Part shown: positions 89 to 13,510 of the stretch, piece after piece
Position numbering within the stretch: the stretch's first letter is position 1
How the letters are laid out: the number at the start of each line of letters is the position of its first letter
The notes under the pieces: model-generated
Seen by the model: only the letters and a program-made list of their open reading frames with translations
Database searches by the model: none
Told to the model about the DNA's origin: nothing
Made by a program: the position numbers and the translations under genes
Assembly (NCBI GenBank): GCA_026415985.1
Contig: JAOAGA010000046.1
Span: 1-13,771, forward strand
Direction of reading: 5' to 3'
From: Pseudomonadota bacterium
Lineage (GTDB): Bacteria > CALINM01
Length of the DNA stretch: 13,771 bases

Positions 89-712
89 CTATAAGCTCAG
101 AAAGGTCTCCCGAATAAACTTTGACCAGTACTTACTTAACTTCTTAGGCCTTCCAAGATAAATGTTATAAAGTTTTTGCCCTTCTTTTACATCTTTTAGG
201 ATAATTTTGAAGAAGGTTTTCTCTCTGTCTAATAAATATTTTTTATCCGAACTCCTCTCAATTATTAAATTGCCCCTCAAGTTCTGACGAAAGGTACTGT
301 CATACCTGTCTTTTCTATCTTTTATAAACTCTATCTTATCATTTTTCTTAAACTTACTGTTCCTTGGAAAAGGCAACTGAAATATTAGTTCAAGATAGAA
401 AACTTCTCCTCTCTGCTCCTTAAAATTTCTTATGTTATCAAAGTCAATTAAAGTAAAATGAACAAGTTTTGATATATCCTTAACTGAAACAATCTCATCT
501 AAATTCTTCTCGTAAAGCTCAGGAAGATTTTCCGGAAATAGCATTTTTAGCAGTTTGAGATTAGCAAAAAAGGGGCGGTTAAGAACATACTCTCTTAAAT
601 CATATATCTGGGGAACGAAAATACCTAACCACCCCGCAATATAGGGGCTACTGAAAAAATTATCTATGAATTCTTCGATGGTTTGATAATCAACTATAAG
701 GTCTTTATCCAA
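89..712 (-). CDS. Uncharacterised protein, 207 aa
   Basis: I do not recognise this protein. It is rich in Lys, Phe, Asp and Glu and has no signal peptide, no clear membrane segment and no cysteine cluster. The N-terminal third (about residues 10-65) is hydrophobic and aromatic and probably helical. The C-terminal half is strongly charged, with a basic stretch at about 120-150 and a basic C-terminus. No catalytic motif is visible. The start is TTG (712-710), with AAAGG about 7 bases upstream. The next in-frame methionine is far inside, near residue 57. The gene overlaps the 3' end of the PHP-domain gene by 19 bases, so it is probably translationally coupled and the last gene of this leftward operon. 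A role linked to the PHP or signalling proteins can only be guessed from position. Confidence 0.75.
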   Translation of the reverse strand: MDKDLIVDYQTIEEFIDNFFSSPYIAGWLGIFVPQIYDLREYVLNRPFFANLKLLKMLFPENLPELYEKNLDEIVSVKDISKLVHFTLIDFDNIRNFKEQRGEVFYLELIFQLPFPRNSKFKKNDKIEFIKDRKDRYDSTFRQNLRGNLIIERSSDKKYLLDREKTFFKIILKDVKEGQKLYNIYLGRPKKLSKYWSKFIRETFLSL

Positions 713-1338
713 TGAGCAACCTTTTTGTAGATTCCATCTACCTGCTGACTGGTCAATCCTGCACCTAACCCTACAATATAGGCAAAATCTTCTGTTATTA
801 GATCTTTTGGAGAATGGGCGTCTGTGTTTATTACAAAATTTGCCTTATTTTTAATTCCTAACCTGACAATGTGTCCGTTTGAAATGTTATGACCACCTCT
901 TGCTGTTATTTCCAGGAAGGTTCCCTTTTTGACAGCAACCTTTATTTCTTCCTCAGTGATTAAACCCGGATGGGCAAGTATATCAACCCCTGCCTCAATG
1001 GCAGATATATTTGTACCTTTCTCTACCGGTTCTACCGGTGTTTCACCATGACCAACCACAATTTTCGCTCCTAACCTGCGTGCTTCTCTTACCGCTTCTT
1101 TATAAAATTCCGGAGGAATATGAGTCAGTTCGCATCCAGCGATAGCATAAATCCTTCCTCTTCTGTTTATCTTTTCAACAGCCCTGACCAGTCTTTTTAT
1201 TATAAAATCCATATTTGAGAAATCCATATGATCACAAATAGCAATGACCTTATATCCCTTTTCTTCTGCCCTTCTAACAAGTTCAAAGGGAACGAGCTCT
1301 CCATCGCTAAACAAACTATGAGTATGAAGGTCTATCAC
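694..1338 (-). CDS. PHP-domain metal-dependent phosphoesterase (histidinol-phosphatase-like)
   Basis: This is a 214-residue single-domain PHP protein. The metal-binding motifs appear in order: H5-T-H7 with D12, D36-H37, E70 (GCELT), H97 (GHGE), H123 (HPG) and D173-A-H175 (NTDAH). The fold forms a multinuclear metal centre that hydrolyses phosphoesters. Relatives include HisK-type histidinol phosphatase, 5'-3' nucleoside phosphatases and the PHP domain of DNA polymerases. All ligand positions look intact, so it should be active, but the substrate cannot be read from sequence and no other his genes are present. It is probably cytoplasmic. The start is GTG (1338-1336), forming a 4-base GTGA overlap with the stop of the upstream pseudoreceiver/DUF4388 gene. 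That overlap is strong evidence for this start and for coupled translation. Confidence 0.9.
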   Translation of the reverse strand: MIDLHTHSLFSDGELVPFELVRRAEEKGYKVIAICDHMDFSNMDFIIKRLVRAVEKINRRGRIYAIAGCELTHIPPEFYKEAVREARRLGAKIVVGHGETPVEPVEKGTNISAIEAGVDILAHPGLITEEEIKVAVKKGTFLEITARGGHNISNGHIVRLGIKNKANFVINTDAHSPKDLITEDFAYIVGLGAGLTSQQVDGIYKKVAHWIKTL

Positions 1339-2771
1339 ATAACCTCCTCAACAAAATTTCTGAAAATTCTTTCAAGGGCAAATTTGATGCCATCTTTCGT
1401 CATCTCACCTTTAGGCAGGACAACACATCTTTTCCCGTAATAGTTTACACAACCCTGCGGTTTAATTTTATCATCAACAACCATTCCACCAATGAACATA
1501 TTTAAAAAGGCGTTGTAAAAAGGATCTTTAAACTCATAATCGGTAGCAAAAAAAAGATGAAGATAGAGGCTCTCTATGATGCTTATGTTACCTAAATAGC
1601 CTATGTTCTTTTTACCTCTTTTTAAGTCAAGAAAGTCAACATTGTTCGGAGAGAAGTTCAGATTAATAAGAACCGATAAAAAATCTTCTATATTGTTTTT
1701 TTCAATAAAAAAAACCATTACCGGAATATTATAAGGAGCTCTTATATCAGGAAATTTTTTCATCAATGCCTTTTTGAACTCAAGAATTAAGTCTGATGAA
1801 AAATCAAGGACTGATTTCGTTAACGTATCTTCCTTTATTAGTTCGAAACTTATAATGCCTTTTTCCTTTAATGCTATAAGTATCTTTAATATCTCATAAT
1901 CGGGCATTGGCAGATTATCAAGAACCTCTCTTAATTCAGTAAAAACTTCAAGGGCAGAGAGAACATCTAATGTTTTCGGTCTAAGTCCCTTTTCTATCTG
2001 TGATATCTTAACATTGAGTAATATCCTGAACTTTTCCTGAGGAAAACTCTTAACTAACTCTTTTATCTCGTCGTTTTGTCTTAATCCTTCCATCAAAAGG
2101 CTGTCAGTACTTTCTTTAATCTCCTCCTGTAGCTCCGGTTCAGCAGGGATAAACTTAAAATAGCCATCCTGTATATTTAAAATTCTGTAGAAAGCCTTGA
2201 CAGATGTAGTGTTTTCATATTTTGCGTTAATGATTCTGCCCTCTTTAAAAGATACAACTGATTTTGCTTCCTTGTCGTTCTGTGATGTCAGATAAAGATT
2301 GCCTGTTCTCTGATTCAGAGAGAGTATCTGAATTATATCGGGAATGCTCATCTGTTTTAAGGTTCCGGAAAATTCTTCTTTGCTTTTTACACCTTCGGAG
2401 GTTAAAATTTTGCGCTTTGTATCTTCAAGTATTTTTCTAAACTCGTGGGGGTTAAAAGGCTTGATAATAAAATAATCATAGCCCCTTCTGAAGTGACTTA
2501 GCTGAACCGTCTTTTCATTAAGATATAAAATAGGTATTGATTCTGTCTTGGGATTGGTCCTGATAATCTGACTTAATTTCACTCCATCTATTAAAGGTAG
2601 TTCAAGGGAGAGTATTATCAAATCGGGTCTTTCCTGCAAAGAGGTCTGGAGTGCTAATACACCATCTCTTGCAATAAAAAGATGAACCGATTTTTCGTCT
2701 ACAATCTCTCTTAGCTTATCAATTACCTTAACATCATTTTCTGCAATCAGGATTTTCAATTTTTCTGTCAT
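1335..2771 (-). CDS. Pseudoreceiver-DUF4388 (PATAN) signalling protein
   Basis: The protein has 478 residues from the ATG at 2771-2769. That start gives a 4-base ATGA overlap with the upstream gene and is preferred to an in-frame GTG nine bases earlier. Residues about 4-122 form a CheY-like receiver fold, but the phosphoacceptor Asp is Ser55 (LIILSLELP), the acidic pair near the N-terminus is degraded (AEND), and the usual Thr is Asn. Only K104 (IIKPF) is kept, so phosphorylation is unlikely. Residues about 134-232 match DUF4388/PATAN, with the GTL..MSIPDIIQIL start, the RTGNLYL strand and the LLMEGLRQNDE end. A winged-helix-like segment follows (about 250-315), then about 160 residues I do not recognise. 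DUF4388 proteins often act in gliding, pilus or GTPase-linked signalling. Here a scaffold role fed by protein contacts is inferred. Confidence 0.87.
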   Translation of the reverse strand: MTEKLKILIAENDVKVIDKLREIVDEKSVHLFIARDGVLALQTSLQERPDLIILSLELPLIDGVKLSQIIRTNPKTESIPILYLNEKTVQLSHFRRGYDYFIIKPFNPHEFRKILEDTKRKILTSEGVKSKEEFSGTLKQMSIPDIIQILSLNQRTGNLYLTSQNDKEAKSVVSFKEGRIINAKYENTTSVKAFYRILNIQDGYFKFIPAEPELQEEIKESTDSLLMEGLRQNDEIKELVKSFPQEKFRILLNVKISQIEKGLRPKTLDVLSALEVFTELREVLDNLPMPDYEILKILIALKEKGIISFELIKEDTLTKSVLDFSSDLILEFKKALMKKFPDIRAPYNIPVMVFFIEKNNIEDFLSVLINLNFSPNNVDFLDLKRGKKNIGYLGNISIIESLYLHLFFATDYEFKDPFYNAFLNMFIGGMVVDDKIKPQGCVNYYGKRCVVLPKGEMTKDGIKFALERIFRNFVEEVM

Positions 2772-4225
2772 AACTGCCACTGTAAATAATATTCTGACTG
2801 AATCTTGTTAATCATTCCTTCAACCATAAGCTGATCTGAAGTTTCAAAGACATATTCACCTACCTCAATAACCCCATAGGCATAATGTTCATTAAGAAAA
2901 AAAAGAAACTTAATTGTCTCATACCCCTTTTTCTCCATTACGACATTGACAACGCCAGGAATGTCTACAAAACTGCCTTTGTCTTCCCAGAAAAAATATA
3001 CTTTAGTTCCTGCATCTATGAAACTTTTTTTATCCTGAACTAAAATGGCTCTCTCTTTATCATAGATGCTTGCGTAAAATATACCCCTTCTTTTTGAATT
3101 GATTTTAATATCATTGAGTAATAAAGATACAATCTGTGGAAAAACTTCCTTATCCTTTTTATACCAACAAAAAAATTTTGTATTGTTTTTTTCCTTAAAA
3201 TTAATTATTTCCGATATTAGTTGTTCCAGATTTTGTTTATTGAAATCGAGTTTAAAATACAGGCTCTTTCTGTTCTGATCAATCTTTTCTTCAAGTGCTT
3301 TTAAAAGTTCCTCTAAGGTGTTGCCATGTATGGGAAGACCAACTGCCGAGATATTTAATTTAATTTCATCTATATCTCTTGCTGTCTTTAAAATTCCCTT
3401 CCCGACTAATGCCTGTCTTATCCTTCTTATGGCCATTAAAGCACCAAAATAATCCGTTTCTGTTAAGAAAATCAGAAAATAGTTTTTTTCTTTCTCTACC
3501 AACCAATCGGAATCTCTAATTACGCTGTGGATATTATCTAAAATTTCTTTCAGAGTCAATATTATGTCATCTTCTTTATGTCTCTTTTTTAACTCTTCGA
3601 GATTTTCTATGAGAATACCAATTACTGAAAGCTTTCTGTCATATCTTAAAGATTTATATATCTCTTTTTTCACAAAATCTTTAAAGATGTCCCAAAAATA
3701 GGCATTATTTCTTTCGTCCTTTATGGAACATCTCTGTAATATCTCAATTTTTTTAGCGTTTTCTAAGGCTAAAGGTATAAACTCACCGATATAATAGGAC
3801 TTATTAAACTCCTTCTCAGTGAAACCTTCTTTCATAACAGGTTCAGTTATTTTAACAAGTCCATAAAATTTTTCATTGTATCGGAGAGGCATATTTATCT
3901 CATTGGGATTTATGTAAAAGTCGAGGTGCGCTTCATCTATCTCCTCTCTTTTAATAGCATTTTTAAACCTGTTTAAATCGACCGTTCCCCTGTACATATC
4001 TAAATGAAGAGTATCATCATCCTCGTTGTATATATAAAGTAAAACGCCACTGCCAAAGGTAGTATTTAAAATCTCATCTAAAAGCTGTTCTTTTAATCTT
4101 GTTATATCCCATTCGGTAATAAACCTTATGATTCTCCGATAAAGATTTAAAAGCTCAACCATCTCAACATTCTGAAAGAGAAGAAGATCTTTATCCATAT
4201 TTGTGGGATTTTCTTTATTACTCAA
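2768..4225 (-). CDS. GAF plus degenerate GGDEF protein with uncharacterised C-terminal domain
   Basis: The protein has 485 residues. A helical N-terminus leads into a GAF-like sensory domain (about 35-160). A GGDEF-type fold follows (about 170-325), recognisable from the RDSDWLV strand and the F-L-I-F-L-T-E-T strand after the signature. The GGDEF signature itself is replaced by EKNYF (residues 246-250), and the metal-binding Asp positions near residue 208 are Asn and Glu. Diguanylate cyclase activity is therefore not expected, and a nucleotide-binding or dimerising role is more likely. The last 150 residues are unassigned. No membrane segments are visible. The start is TTG (4225-4223), chosen because GGGAGG lies 4 bases upstream. 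The in-frame ATG at 4198 has no ribosome binding site. The stop overlaps the ATG of the pseudoreceiver gene by 4 bases. Confidence 0.85.
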   Translation of the reverse strand: MSNKENPTNMDKDLLLFQNVEMVELLNLYRRIIRFITEWDITRLKEQLLDEILNTTFGSGVLLYIYNEDDDTLHLDMYRGTVDLNRFKNAIKREEIDEAHLDFYINPNEINMPLRYNEKFYGLVKITEPVMKEGFTEKEFNKSYYIGEFIPLALENAKKIEILQRCSIKDERNNAYFWDIFKDFVKKEIYKSLRYDRKLSVIGILIENLEELKKRHKEDDIILTLKEILDNIHSVIRDSDWLVEKEKNYFLIFLTETDYFGALMAIRRIRQALVGKGILKTARDIDEIKLNISAVGLPIHGNTLEELLKALEEKIDQNRKSLYFKLDFNKQNLEQLISEIINFKEKNNTKFFCWYKKDKEVFPQIVSLLLNDIKINSKRRGIFYASIYDKERAILVQDKKSFIDAGTKVYFFWEDKGSFVDIPGVVNVVMEKKGYETIKFLFFLNEHYAYGVIEVGEYVFETSDQLMVEGMINKIQSEYYLQWQL

Positions 4226-4229
4226 AAAA

Positions 4230-4235
4230 CCTCCC
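4230..4235 (-). promoter_or_regulatory. Ribosome binding site that decides the TTG start at 4225
   Basis: The minus-strand sequence AGGGAGG ends 4 bases before the TTG at 4225-4223. It is the only good Shine-Dalgarno sequence near the start of the GAF/degenerate-GGDEF gene, because the next ATG (4198) follows AATCCCACAAAT. The spacing is slightly short but acceptable. Confidence 0.6.
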
Positions 4236-4282
4236 TGCAGTTTCTACTTCTAATAAGCTTTAGCCAACCTAAACGAAAAAAC

Positions 4283-4765
4283 TTACATATTATATTTTCC
4301 AAAGGCATCATCGGGCAGACTTGCCAACATTTCTTCCAAATCTTTAGATGAGCCACTGAATGGCTCTGAAAGGGCATTGCTCTTCATAATGCTTTCTTCC
4401 ACAAAAATAGGACTTGACTGTCTCAAGGCAATTGCTACAGAATCGCTCGGACGGGCATCTATATTGATTGTTTTATCATTCTGTTTAACCACAAGATGTG
4501 CATAAAAGGTGCCCTCATACAATTTGTAGATATGGACCTCTTCTAATTTTCCGCCGAGAAAAACTATGGTGTCAGAACATAAATCATGTGTCATCGGTCT
4601 CTCTAACATTATACCTTTAGTAGCCATATATATTGCCTGTGCCTCGAAGAATCCGATCCAAATAGGCAAAACTCTGCTACCACCCTTTTCTCTTAACAGG
4701 ACTACCGGTGTATTATTTACTCTATCAAGAATAATTGTTAATACTTCTACCTGAATTTTAGCCAT
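4283..4765 (-). CDS. Bifunctional nuclease family protein (BFN / DUF151)
   Basis: This 160-residue protein matches the BFN/DUF151 family along its length. It shows the N-terminal strand pattern with LPIWIGFFEAQAI (about 33-45), RPMTHDL (56-62), DARPSDSVAIALR (103-115) and a C-terminal helix ending in FGKY. Plant and thermophile members have reported RNase and DNase activity, but the bacterial role is poorly defined. The protein looks full length and cytoplasmic. The start is ATG with GGGGAG about 7 bases upstream. It overlaps the 3' end of miaB by 8 bases, so the two are very likely co-transcribed. The miaB-bfn pairing recurs in many anaerobes and might connect tRNA modification with RNA turnover, which is inference. 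A 57-base gap separates it from the next gene, with no clear terminator. Confidence 0.93.
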   Translation of the reverse strand: MAKIQVEVLTIILDRVNNTPVVLLREKGGSRVLPIWIGFFEAQAIYMATKGIMLERPMTHDLCSDTIVFLGGKLEEVHIYKLYEGTFYAHLVVKQNDKTINIDARPSDSVAIALRQSSPIFVEESIMKSNALSEPFSGSSKDLEEMLASLPDDAFGKYNM

Positions 4766-6068
4766 TTATAAACTCCCCTTTAAGAGAGTTTTTGAATCCC
4801 CGGGTTATTTTTACTTTTACGGTTTCGCCTTCTTTTATCTCACGGTTAGATGAAAAATTAACAATTCTGAAACAGGGGGTTCTACCCATAAACTCTGTCT
4901 TTTCTTTCTTGCTTCTTGACTCAACAAGAACCGGAACTATCCTCCCCTCCATCTCCTTATTTTTCTCATAAATTATTTCTTTCAAAAGATTCTGTAAAAT
5001 CTCTAATCTTCTTTGTTTAATCTCTTCGGGTATCTGATCCTCCATTGTTGATGCCTTAGTATATGGTCTTTTTGAATATTTGAAAGAAAAGGCCGAATCA
5101 TATCTGACTTCTTTAACAAGGGTTAGGGTATCTTCAAAGTCATCTTCTGTTTCTGAAGGAAAACCTACAATAATATCAGTAGTAATAGAAATATCGGGCC
5201 GTAATTGTCTCAGCTTTTTTACAATACGTAAATAGTCTTCTCTGCTGTATTTTCTATTCATCAAATTTAATACTCTGTCTGAACCAGACTGGACTGGAAG
5301 GTGAATATGAGGCATAAGCTTTTCTATTGTTGCAAAGGAGTTTATTAACCCTTCCGTAATATCTTTTGGATGAGAGGTGGTAAATCTGATTCTTTCAATT
5401 TTTTTAATTTTTGAAATTTCTTCTATAAGCTTTACAAAACCTTCCTTAACAGCAAGATCTTTACCGTAAGAGTTAACATTTTGTCCTAACAGCATTACCT
5501 CTTGTATGCCGTAATCAGCTAATCTCTTAACTTCTTCTATTACATCTTCAGGCTTTCTGCTCACTTCTCTCCCGCGAACATAGGGAACGATACAGAAGCT
5601 ACAAAAATTATTGCACCCCTGCATAATAGGTATCATAGCTCTGATACCCTCTGTTGTGAACAGGTCTTTATCTCTCTCTATAACATTTCTTTCTGTAACT
5701 TCAACAACTTTCTCATTATTTCTTGCTCTTTTAATAAAATTGGGAAGATAGTTAATATGATGGGGACCAAACACTATATCCAGATAGGGAGCCTTCTTAA
5801 TCAGGTTCTCCCCTTCCTGTTGAGCGACACACCCACAAACTGCAAGAATACAATCATTTTTTCTTTTGTATGGGTAAGCCCTTCCCAGAAAACTAAGAAC
5901 CTTTTTTTCTGCTTTATCTCTTATGCTACAGGTGTTTACAAGGATTATACTTGCATCTTTTATATCATAAACTCTCTCATAACCTATTGTGTGAAGAAGA
6001 GATGCCATATACTCGCTATCTGCTTCATTCATCTGACATCCATAGGTCTCTATATAAAATTTTTCCAT
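4758..6068 (-). CDS. miaB: tRNA-2-methylthio-N6-isopentenyladenosine(37) synthase MiaB
   Basis: MiaB is a radical-SAM methylthiotransferase that adds a methylthio group to C2 of i6A37 in tRNAs reading UNN codons, stabilising codon-anticodon pairing. The 436-residue protein has all three expected domains. The N-terminal UPF0004 domain has cysteines C11 (YGCQMN), C47 (NTCSIR) and C80 (CGC) for the auxiliary [4Fe-4S] cluster. The radical-SAM domain carries C152-x3-C156-x2-C159 (GCNNFCSFC) followed by the family-typical PYVRGRE. A C-terminal TRAM domain spans about 372-435. HLPVQSGSDRVLNLMNRKY is also typical. The length matches the family. The ATG at 6068 gives the standard MEKFYIETYGCQMN start, yet no Shine-Dalgarno sequence precedes it (see the promoter at 6077-6105). 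It is the first gene of the leftward operon. Confidence 0.98.
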   Translation of the reverse strand: MEKFYIETYGCQMNEADSEYMASLLHTIGYERVYDIKDASIILVNTCSIRDKAEKKVLSFLGRAYPYKRKNDCILAVCGCVAQQEGENLIKKAPYLDIVFGPHHINYLPNFIKRARNNEKVVEVTERNVIERDKDLFTTEGIRAMIPIMQGCNNFCSFCIVPYVRGREVSRKPEDVIEEVKRLADYGIQEVMLLGQNVNSYGKDLAVKEGFVKLIEEISKIKKIERIRFTTSHPKDITEGLINSFATIEKLMPHIHLPVQSGSDRVLNLMNRKYSREDYLRIVKKLRQLRPDISITTDIIVGFPSETEDDFEDTLTLVKEVRYDSAFSFKYSKRPYTKASTMEDQIPEEIKQRRLEILQNLLKEIIYEKNKEMEGRIVPVLVESRSKKEKTEFMGRTPCFRIVNFSSNREIKEGETVKVKITRGFKNSLKGEFING

Positions 6069-10759: not shown

Positions 10760-12100
10760 TTATTCAATACCATACTCTTTTAGTTTATAATGAAGAGATC
10801 TTGGACTAATCTCAAGAAGTTTTGCTGCCTTAAGTCTGTTACCACCGGTCAGTTGCAATGCCCTGTTGATAAATTTTTTTTCCATATCCTCAATGGCCTT
10901 TTTTAAGGACATTATGTTTACATCATCAGCCCCTTCAATCTTCTCATCAACCCTTTTTTCAAACATATAATCAGGTAAATCTTCAATATCAATTTTATCA
11001 GAGTTTGAAAATATTAGAGTCTTTTCAATAAAATTTTTCATCTCTCTGAAATTACCGGGCCATTTATAGGATAAGAGCACTTCCATCGCATCATCGGTAA
11101 TATACTTACCGTTTCTTTTCAACTCCCTTTTAATGTAGGCTTCTATATCTTCTTTCCTTTCCCGCAGTGGTGGCACTTCTATAGGGATAACATTTAATCT
11201 GTAAAATAAATCCTGTCTGAATCTTCCTTCTTCTATCATCTTTTTCAGGTCCTTATTTGTGGCAGATATTATTCTTACATCAACCTTTATGGTTTTTAGA
11301 TCTCCCACTCGTCTTATTTCTCCATCTTCTAAGAATCTCAAAAGTTTACTCTGAAGTCCTTCTTTCATCTCGGAAATCTCATCAAGAAAACAAACTCCAC
11401 CATTGGCGTATTCAAAAAGTCCTCTTTTAGGTTGTGATGCATCGGTAAAAGCACCCTTAGCGTAACCAAAAAGCTCGCTCTCTAATAAATTCTCCGGTAT
11501 GGCAGAACAGTTGATGGCAACAAAGGGGTTGTTAGCCCTGTTGCTCTTTTGATGAATGAGTCTTGCAACAATCTCTTTACCTACACCACTTTCACCTGTT
11601 ATTAAGACCGGCTGTCTGTAGGGAGCTATTTTTTCTATCGCTAAGATTACTTCTTTTATAGCAGGGCTTTCTATGATCACATCCTTTAAAAAGTTTTCGT
11701 TAGTGCCTCTTTTTAATAACTCATTCTCCTTTAACAATTTCTCTCTTTCTTCAGCCTTTTTAATTGCTATAATTACCTCATCTGAGTTAAAAGGTTTTGA
11801 AATATAATCATAGGCACCTTTTCTTATGGCCTGCACAGCAGTATCAATAGAGCCATAAGATGTCATCATAATAACTGTAAGATTAATTTTTTCTTTGTTT
11901 ATTTGTTCAAGAAAAGCAAAACCATCCATTTTCGGCATCTTAATATCACAAAGAACCACGTCATAGATATCCCCTCTTACCTTCTCAAGGGCTATCTCGC
12001 CATCCTCTGCTAAATCTACCTCATAACCTGCCTTTGTAAGAACCGTTTTTAGCATATGTCTTATACTAAACTCATCATCTACAACAAGAACTTTCAACAT
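10760..12100 (-). CDS. Sigma-54-dependent response regulator, NtrC family, with variant GAFTDA loop
   Basis: This is a 446-residue enhancer-binding protein in three parts. The receiver domain (about 3-115) has D8, D9, phosphoacceptor D52, T80 and K102. The AAA+ domain has Walker A GESGVGKE (169-176), Walker B FLDE (238-241) and arginine-finger residues R295 and R301. A Fis-type DNA-binding domain spans about 400-446 (GNRLKAAKLLEISPRSLHYKL). The sigma-54 contact loop reads GAFTDA (216-221) rather than GAFTGA, so D220 replaces the second glycine. Phosphorylation should drive oligomerisation and ATP-dependent opening of sigma-54 promoters. It starts 3 bases after the kinase stop, with GGGGGA as ribosome binding site, so the two are a cognate pair. 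PilR/NtrC-like regulators are the nearest known type. Its target may be the oxidoreductase promoter downstream, by position. Confidence 0.95.
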   Translation of the reverse strand: MLKVLVVDDEFSIRHMLKTVLTKAGYEVDLAEDGEIALEKVRGDIYDVVLCDIKMPKMDGFAFLEQINKEKINLTVIMMTSYGSIDTAVQAIRKGAYDYISKPFNSDEVIIAIKKAEEREKLLKENELLKRGTNENFLKDVIIESPAIKEVILAIEKIAPYRQPVLITGESGVGKEIVARLIHQKSNRANNPFVAINCSAIPENLLESELFGYAKGAFTDASQPKRGLFEYANGGVCFLDEISEMKEGLQSKLLRFLEDGEIRRVGDLKTIKVDVRIISATNKDLKKMIEEGRFRQDLFYRLNVIPIEVPPLRERKEDIEAYIKRELKRNGKYITDDAMEVLLSYKWPGNFREMKNFIEKTLIFSNSDKIDIEDLPDYMFEKRVDEKIEGADDVNIMSLKKAIEDMEKKFINRALQLTGGNRLKAAKLLEISPRSLHYKLKEYGIE

Positions 12101-12103
12101 CTT

Positions 12104-13510
12104 CTATCCCCCAAAGATTTTCAATCTGACAAAAAATATACATCCCCTGTCGTAATTCTTGAAATAAATCTTACCACCATACTTAGTTACAAGACTATGG
12201 GCTACCGAAAGTCCCAGCCCTGTCCCCTTACCTACCGGTTTTGTAGTAAAAAAGGGATCAAAAATCTTGTCGGCAATCTCATCGGGGATACCACCACCCT
12301 CATCGGTAACTGATATTATAAAATTGTCTTCCTCAATCTGATAATCTATCTGTATCTTACCACCGTCCCTACTCGCATCAACCGCATTAATAATAATGTT
12401 CAACAAAACCTGCTTTAACTCTTCCGTTGAAAATATAACCGCTTTACCTTCAGAAACATTATTAATAAGCTCAATATTTTTAAAATCCTTTTGCGGTGCA
12501 AGAAGTCTTATAATATCTTCGATCACGTCCCTTACATTGCAGACAGAAACTCCGCCTTCATTTTTTGAACGGGCGAAGTTCAGTAAGTCTCTGATTATTC
12601 GGTTAATCCTTTCGGTTTCTCTGAAAATGAGATCAAGTATCTCCCTTTCTTCATCACTTTTGGCGTTTTCCTTAAGATAGGATATATAACCCATAATACT
12701 TGTTAGAGGGTTACCTATCTCGTGGGCAAGTCCTGCCGAGAGCCTTCCTACTGTGGCCATCTTCTCTGAAAATATAATCTCTTCCTGAGCAGATTTTAAG
12801 GCTAAATTTATTTTTTTTAACTCCTCAATATTATGTTCAAGTTTGTTTTTGTAGCTTTCAATCTTTTCCATCATTTCGTTAAACTGGTCATAAATTAAGT
12901 CCCACTCTTTTACATTTGATTTATCGATTCTTACCGTTATGTTATCCTCACTTACACTTTTATAAGCTTTTTTAAGGTTTTCAAAGGGGACAAGAAATCT
13001 TTTTCTGTAATAGGCAAAGGTAAATAAAGTAAGAGTTACAAGCGAAATAAGTCCAAAGGGGATAAAAAGAATAATGATACTTCTTAAGCTATTTTTTTCC
13101 GCGTCAAAATCCCTTTTCAAAAAGATTAAATAGGGCCTTCCGGTAAGATAGATAACCTTTTTTGCTGTTATTGACGGGTATAAAAAGTCTTTCTCAACTT
13201 CTATATCCATCCCCTCTCTCCACTTTATATCATCTTTAGAAAGACTATCTATACCAGAGATATTGGTCTTCTTTTCTATATCGTAGATACCATAGGCTAT
13301 GCCACCGGGAAGATAGAGTTTTAAATTATTATCAATGGGGTTTTTTTCAAGATCATAAAAAATTTTCTGCAGATTGAAGACCTCTATTTCAATTCTTTGT
13401 TTTTCGACAATCTTAATTGTTGCGATGAAGGTAATAATTATAGACAGCAAGGTAAGTAAAAAAATCCCGTAAATCAGTTCCGCACTTATTTTCCCAAATT
13501 TATTCGTCAT
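12104..13510 (-). CDS. Membrane sensor histidine kinase paired with the NtrC-type regulator
   Basis: This is a 468-residue kinase. A membrane helix (about 11-34) is followed by an extracytoplasmic region of roughly 105 residues that I cannot assign to a sensor family, then a second helix (about 144-168). A HAMP-like linker and coiled coil (about 169-245) follow. The HisKA domain has phosphoacceptor H263 in LAHEIGNPLTSI. The ATPase domain has N-box NIIINAVDAS (371-380), D403-E-G-G-G, the F-box DPFFTTK and GKGTGLGLS (427-435). All catalytic boxes are intact. The HEIGNPL box and the NtrC-type partner place it near NtrB/PilS/AtoS-like kinases. It has two membrane passes rather than the six of Pseudomonas PilS. 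The ATG at 13510 lacks a strong ribosome binding site. It lies 31 bases after the prepilin peptidase gene, so co-transcription is likely. Confidence 0.94.
   Translation of the reverse strand: MTNKFGKISAELIYGIFLLTLLSIIITFIATIKIVEKQRIEIEVFNLQKIFYDLEKNPIDNNLKLYLPGGIAYGIYDIEKKTNISGIDSLSKDDIKWREGMDIEVEKDFLYPSITAKKVIYLTGRPYLIFLKRDFDAEKNSLRSIIILFIPFGLISLVTLTLFTFAYYRKRFLVPFENLKKAYKSVSEDNITVRIDKSNVKEWDLIYDQFNEMMEKIESYKNKLEHNIEELKKINLALKSAQEEIIFSEKMATVGRLSAGLAHEIGNPLTSIMGYISYLKENAKSDEEREILDLIFRETERINRIIRDLLNFARSKNEGGVSVCNVRDVIEDIIRLLAPQKDFKNIELINNVSEGKAVIFSTEELKQVLLNIIINAVDASRDGGKIQIDYQIEEDNFIISVTDEGGGIPDEIADKIFDPFFTTKPVGKGTGLGLSVAHSLVTKYGGKIYFKNYDRGCIFFVRLKIFGG

Follow-up and report, generated by a model that had tools for sequence, protein, structure and literature searches.

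A degenerate GGDEF protein with conserved c-di-GMP inhibitory-site residues and a PATAN-domain protein form a gene pair kept across bacterial phyla

The window analysed here, meaning the whole stretch of 13,771 nucleotides (positions 1 to 13,771 of contig JAOAGA010000046.1, assembly GCA_026415985.1, a Pseudomonadota bacterium of the CALINM01 lineage), carries on its minus strand two adjacent genes encoding multidomain signalling proteins, named S (the upstream protein) and R (the downstream protein). The stop codon of S (TGA, 2770-2768) and the start codon of R (ATG, 2771-2769) share an ATGA, confirming the 4-base overlap reported in the initial annotation of this DNA; an alternative R start is the GTG at 2780. 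The two substitutions reported there, EKNYF for GGDEF in S and Ser55 for the receiver Asp in R, were also confirmed in the reading frames. The features of the pair are the following:

2768-4225, minus strand: S, a GAF-like / degenerate GGDEF / DICT-like protein of 485 amino acids (aa) with a TTG start
3761-4168, minus strand: GAF-like domain of S, residues ~20-155 (Pfam matches of orthologues, and fold)
3263-3730, minus strand: pseudo-GGDEF domain of S, residues 166-321 (Pfam GGDEF, 1.2e-6)
3506-3517, minus strand: inhibitory site (I-site) motif RDSD of S (R237 and D240, equivalent to PleD R359 and D362)
3476-3490, minus strand: EKNYF in place of GG[DE]EF, S residues 246-250 (read from 3490 to 3476), with loss of the active site (A-site)
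3422-3424, minus strand: I-site R268 of S (equivalent to PleD R390)
2786-3229, minus strand: divergent DICT-like domain of S, residues ~333-480 (profile-profile comparison)
1335-2771, minus strand: R, a pseudo-receiver / DUF4388 (PATAN) / winged-helix-like linker / pseudo-GTPase protein of 478 aa from the ATG
2418-2762, minus strand: receiver domain of R, Ser55 for Asp (Pfam Response_reg, 1.3e-12, 48.3 bits)
2064-2369, minus strand: DUF4388 (PATAN) domain of R (Pfam PF14332, 2.1e-21, 76.7 bits, cut-off 25)
1338-1739, minus strand: predicted pseudo small-GTPase domain of R, P-loop lost (profile-profile comparison and element order of the model)

S has the GGDEF fold: the Pfam match is weak (28.8 bits, cut-off 23.8), and in the AlphaFold model (mean predicted local distance difference test score, pLDDT, 86.8) residues 166-321 have PleD in complex with cyclic dimeric GMP (c-di-GMP; 2wb4) among their best matches (Z 20.4, root-mean-square deviation 2.0, 154 residues). 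Residues were numbered from the alignment with PleD, in which the S residue equals the PleD residue minus 122 around the motif. PleD D327 and N335 are both replaced in the S of the window (L205 and K213), and the same degeneration runs through the family: none of the 67 S proteins compared has GG[DE]EF, the GG or N335, and D327 is present in 3/67. Judged by its sequence, the GGDEF domain of S, which lacks the GG[DE]EF, D327 and N335 of active diguanylate cyclases, is catalytically dead family-wide, and the absence of GG[DE]EF from all 67 proteins indicates that the loss is older than the split of the S lineages.

The I-site residues follow the opposite course, with R237 conserved in 67/67, D240 in 67/67 and R268 in 66/67 S proteins. 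Scored at the same positions as a control, 58 catalytic GGDEF domains have RxxD in 55, R390 in 40 and all three residues in 39. The frequency of RxxD in this control, together with the degeneration of all the enzymatic sites of S and R, would suit a pair that serves only as a structural scaffold, does not bind nucleotides and keeps R237, D240 and R268 to hold the GGDEF fold; however, R390 is far less regularly kept in the catalytic domains than in S, and the three residues stay (near-)invariant, as few other columns do, in a protein conserved at about 20-25% identity, and we consider such a scaffold unlikely, while granting it some weight. RxxD alone would be unremarkable, but its retention alongside R390 where the A-site is entirely gone makes a receptor-like pattern.

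At the level of sequence, S has the make-up of an I-site receptor of the SgmT/PopA type, with a degenerate A-site and with RxxD and the secondary Arg kept. SgmT of Myxococcus xanthus, a proven c-di-GMP receptor with a degenerate A-site and an intact I-site, and PopA of Caulobacter crescentus show the same combination (PMC3509222), an analogy suggesting that S should bind c-di-GMP without making it. SgmT also contains GAF and receiver domains (PMC3509222), but it is a histidine kinase, whereas S lacks a kinase domain, has a DICT-like domain at its C-terminal end and always occurs together with R. ActA, also from M. xanthus, combines a receiver with a GGDEF domain whose A-site is dead and whose I-site is kept (PMC3509222); compared with S by its description, it differs in being described without a GAF or a C-terminal DICT-like domain. 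The genome of the window itself has 10 GGDEF matches. Next to the S-R pair of genome G149, a gene (L107:10656-12050, minus strand) encodes a GAF-GAF-GGDEF protein that matches GGDEF strongly and might supply that pair with c-di-GMP.

The remaining parts of S differ in how well they are conserved. The designation of S as a GAF protein in the initial annotation holds in part: the model aligns with GAF/PHY/PAS-GGDEF structures and GAF_2 (Pfam) is found in 6/16 S orthologues, but the S of the window has no match to Pfam GAF. S orthologues carry an N-terminal receiver, which is intact in Myxococcota and Asp-less in the nearest relatives of the window's species (genomes G001 and G002). The window's species has none: between S and the upstream gene bfn, at the place of the receiver of the relatives, there are just 57 bases (4226-4282); the history of the window's S would be one of receiver decay followed by domain loss. 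In the C-terminal part, a profile-profile comparison of the S tail (31 sequences) with an alignment of only three DICT (PF10069) domains gave 88.2% (E 3e-6), the other S and R domains reaching at most 0.5% against the same alignment. The Pfam DICT model, PF10069, matches neither S nor 15 orthologues; because it does not reach the S tail, we name this domain DICT-like.

The receiver of R has the fold of its family (fold matches of the model at Z about 19-20) and has lost most of its phosphorylation residues in the window. The phosphoacceptor position is occupied by Ser (residue 55 in the ATG form, 58 in the GTG form; nucleotides 2609-2607), the acidic pocket reads E-N-D against D-D, the Thr/Ser switch is Asn, and only the Lys is kept; judged by these residues, the R of the window is no phosphorylatable response regulator. 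Across the family, the receiver Asp is present in 44/70 R rows, nearly all of them from Myxococcota, most of whose R receivers keep the Asp, the acidic pair and the Lys. Elsewhere the replacing residue varies by clade: S in the family of the window, G/S in the G022 family, N in the G246 family, F in the G046 family, A in G149 and G287, and E in G172, L130 and L168. A tree of the rest of R, quickly built and with several long branches, requires at least 4 changes of the receiver Asp state, and the different replacing residues suggest more separate losses than these. By its residues, the R receiver is not phosphorylatable on Asp in the lineage of the window and in several others.

These results reshape a second proposal of the initial annotation, a parallel loss of both active sites, for which the retention of GGDEF and of the Asp in orthologues had been named as contrary evidence: GGDEF is retained by none of the orthologues, and the Asp by many. 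The GGDEF loss is common to the whole family whereas the receiver loss is lineage-specific, with differing residues, which rules out a recent parallel loss. The loss of the receiver Asp in several clades could also point to R as the site of input, its pseudo-receiver binding a ligand such as c-di-GMP and S being the output partner; pseudo-receivers can bind ligands, and ShkA binds c-di-GMP (PMC12632262). However, the phosphorylation residues kept in most Myxococcota mean that a ligand-only receiver is not a family-wide property, and the recognisable c-di-GMP site sits in S; we judge input through R to be very improbable, and S remains the candidate c-di-GMP receptor. Like other Asp-less receivers (ALR, or pseudo-receivers), among them that of M. 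xanthus FrzS, the R receiver has a receiver fold without the phosphoacceptor, and the fold matches of the R model include the FrzS receiver (2i6f); FrzS differs in carrying a coiled coil where R has PATAN and pseudo-GTPase domains, and most Myxococcota R proteins keep the Asp.

The DUF4388 (PATAN) domain was matched in all 17 R orthologues scanned. A PATAN domain and a receiver are also combined in PixE, PixG and PilG of Synechocystis, which bind PilB1 (as cited in PMC9090330 and PMC10519157); R differs in its order, with the receiver at the N-terminal end, followed by PATAN and after it by the winged-helix-like and pseudo-GTPase parts, and in its receiver, which is Asp-less in the lineage of the window.

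Searches of Pfam, NCBIfam and solved structures assigned neither the S tail nor the R tail, and the initial annotation had left both C-terminal regions unassigned; profile comparison now points to a DICT-like domain in S and to a GTPase-like domain in R. The R tail (36 sequences) matched an alignment of 11 small GTPases at 82.8% (E 9e-6) and the single GTPase L220 at 95.5% (E 1.4e-8), while six other S and R domains used as a control reached at most 0.7% against the 11-GTPase alignment. The signal was uneven between subsets (55% with the non-MglA group, 4.9% with the MglA-like group alone). The R model after residue 345 has the element order of a G domain (beta1-alpha1-beta2-beta3-alpha2-beta4); in the fold search with the whole R model the matches were all taken by receivers and the tail was not reached. 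The beta2-beta4 register 'LG...L.E.L.L.LF..P....PLW..FS.GA.GA..L.D' aligns with MglA and with small single-domain GTPases of the L220 kind, which we take to be COG2229-like. These GTPases differ from the R tail in that no aligned R has the P-loop GxxxxGK[ST] or the GTPGQ switch. From the profiles and the model, the R tail is probably a small-GTPase-like domain without a P-loop. R-like proteins of ~320-360 aa with a receiver, a DUF4388 domain and a winged-helix-like part, and without the GTPase-like tail, are encoded at L251, L252, L253 and L254, in genomes lacking S-R.

S and R are a conserved module across phyla. Members of S reaching the C-terminal end of the protein were found with a profile of S in 17/386 genomes, and an independent profile of R detected full-length R, at 459-625 bits, in exactly these genomes, followed by a match of 256 bits without the C-terminal part. 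About 4% of receivers are Asp-less (PMC4395418); given this frequency and the co-occurrence of both degenerate states in the pair, 17/17 among 386 genomes, the pairing goes beyond chance. A wider scan with R as the only query (the 6-row alignment A5) covered 84,980 species genomes and gave 53 R loci, 52 of them with S directly upstream; in the sole exception, L167, the R start is cut off at a contig end. The holders include Myxococcus (among them M. xanthus), Corallococcus, Archangium, Hyalangium and Geothermobacter (Thermodesulfobacteriota), bearing out the expectation of the initial annotation that the two genes are conserved neighbours. The distances of S and R remained correlated after removal of the MiaB distances (r = 0.73, partial mirror-tree, 15 genomes), and a joint function of S and R is very likely. 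The catalytically silent signalling complex proposed in the initial annotation agrees with the dead GGDEF domain and with this joint function, but "silent" misses the strict retention of the I-site.

The loss of catalytic or phosphorylation residues in several domains could also be seen as the decay of two functionless genes. This is scarcely credible in view of the 17/17 co-occurrence, the orthologue frames of S and R without internal stops, the 40-50% identity within the family and the retention of the coupled overlaps.

The genes around the pair in the window, all on the minus strand, are:

694-1338, minus strand: PHP-family phosphatase gene (NF004981), overlapping R and adjoining it in many, not all, lineages
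4283-4765, minus strand: bifunctional nuclease (BFN) gene bfn, upstream
4758-6068, minus strand: miaB-type radical SAM gene, upstream

The end of R overlaps the start of the PHP gene (GTG at 1338) by 4 bases in a GTGA, and the order miaB-(bfn)-S-R-PHP recurs in many non-myxobacterial lineages. Both the order, kept in many unrelated lineages, and the 4-base overlaps S-R and R-PHP would fit a pair serving these housekeeping neighbours, in the control of tRNA modification or nucleotide turnover. However, this order is absent from Myxococcaceae, G149, G287 and G189, where an intact S-R lies elsewhere and the neighbours examined are unrelated (e.g. purN, recD2, cytochromes). An obligate tie of S-R to miaB-bfn-PHP is ruled out by these genomes, contrary to the suggestion in the initial annotation that the pair always travels with those genes, and a housekeeping role is improbable. 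A place in the act operon of M. xanthus was also considered for S-R and found no support: in L122, R is followed by a gene for a small protein in the opposite orientation, and the nearest plus-strand gene after R encodes an enhancer-binding protein.

Taking sequence and analogy together, we lean towards a model in which S, a c-di-GMP receptor without catalytic activity, passes its signal to the PATAN adaptor R and from there perhaps to the motor of the type IV pilus. S-R would form a two-protein signalling module without enzyme activity, in which S would bind c-di-GMP via the I-site of a GGDEF domain unable to make it, and the GAF-like and DICT-like domains of S (in other lineages its receiver too) would take further inputs. 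Binding would be relayed by direct contact to R, an adaptor made of a receiver (Asp-less in the lineage of the window), a PATAN domain and a GTPase-shaped domain unable to hold GTP via a P-loop. The output would go to a protein bound by the PATAN domain, for which PilB, the extension ATPase of the type IV pilus, is a plausible candidate; this is the weakest step of the mechanism. PATAN domains are reported as PilB binders in Synechocystis (as cited in PMC9090330 and PMC10519157), and in myxobacteria PATAN proteins, of which R may be one, are found together with SgmX, a pilus regulator (PMC11580455). PilB exceeded the curated family cut-off in 15/17 S-R genomes versus 163/386 overall (hypergeometric p 9e-5, uncorrected for kinship), and the association is judged on this cut-off; the p of 1e-11 obtained at 770 bits is post hoc, that threshold being the score of the lowest-ranking of the 15 high S-R genomes.

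Several points weigh against this c-di-GMP receptor model. RxxD is nearly as common in the catalytic control domains as in S, and part of its conservation in S may be structural. The link to PilB draws on the cyanobacterial PATAN data and on a co-occurrence confounded by phylogeny. Mutants of the SgmT I-site were altered in localisation, not in motility or development (PMC3509222), so the phenotype of a retained I-site can be weak. The fuller form of the model, in which a cross-phylum obligate pseudoenzyme pair (counting the pseudo-GGDEF, the pseudo-GTPase and, by lineage, the pseudo-receivers) lets a ligand-bound dead cyclase act on the motor of the type IV pilus via an adaptor with PATAN and pseudo-GTPase domains, is put forward tentatively, as a possibility with the balance against it.

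The literature searched gave no name or described function for an S-R module, and the pair is real, conserved and apparently undescribed; each of its domain losses has known counterparts, and what is new is their combination and the strictness of the pairing. The pair is kept in several phyla and in a model bacterium, M. xanthus. Should S bind c-di-GMP, it would connect a dead cyclase with the PATAN proteins, a family associated in other systems with the motor of the type IV pilus, and would be a clear example of a protein that has lost its catalytic sites but keeps a ligand site under strict selection.

Other observations concern the records and the rest of the window. L148 (BNCN01000006.1), titled Comamonas sp. 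KCTC 72670, has an S-R pair that hardly differs from Myxococcus sequences, and the record looks mislabelled or contaminated. Downstream of the PHP gene, positions 89-712 (minus strand) encode a 207-aa protein without a significant match in Pfam or NCBIfam, which is retained at the corresponding position of G001 and G002. Finally, positions 10760-13510 (minus strand) encode a histidine kinase and an NtrC-type regulator, an ordinary two-component pair.

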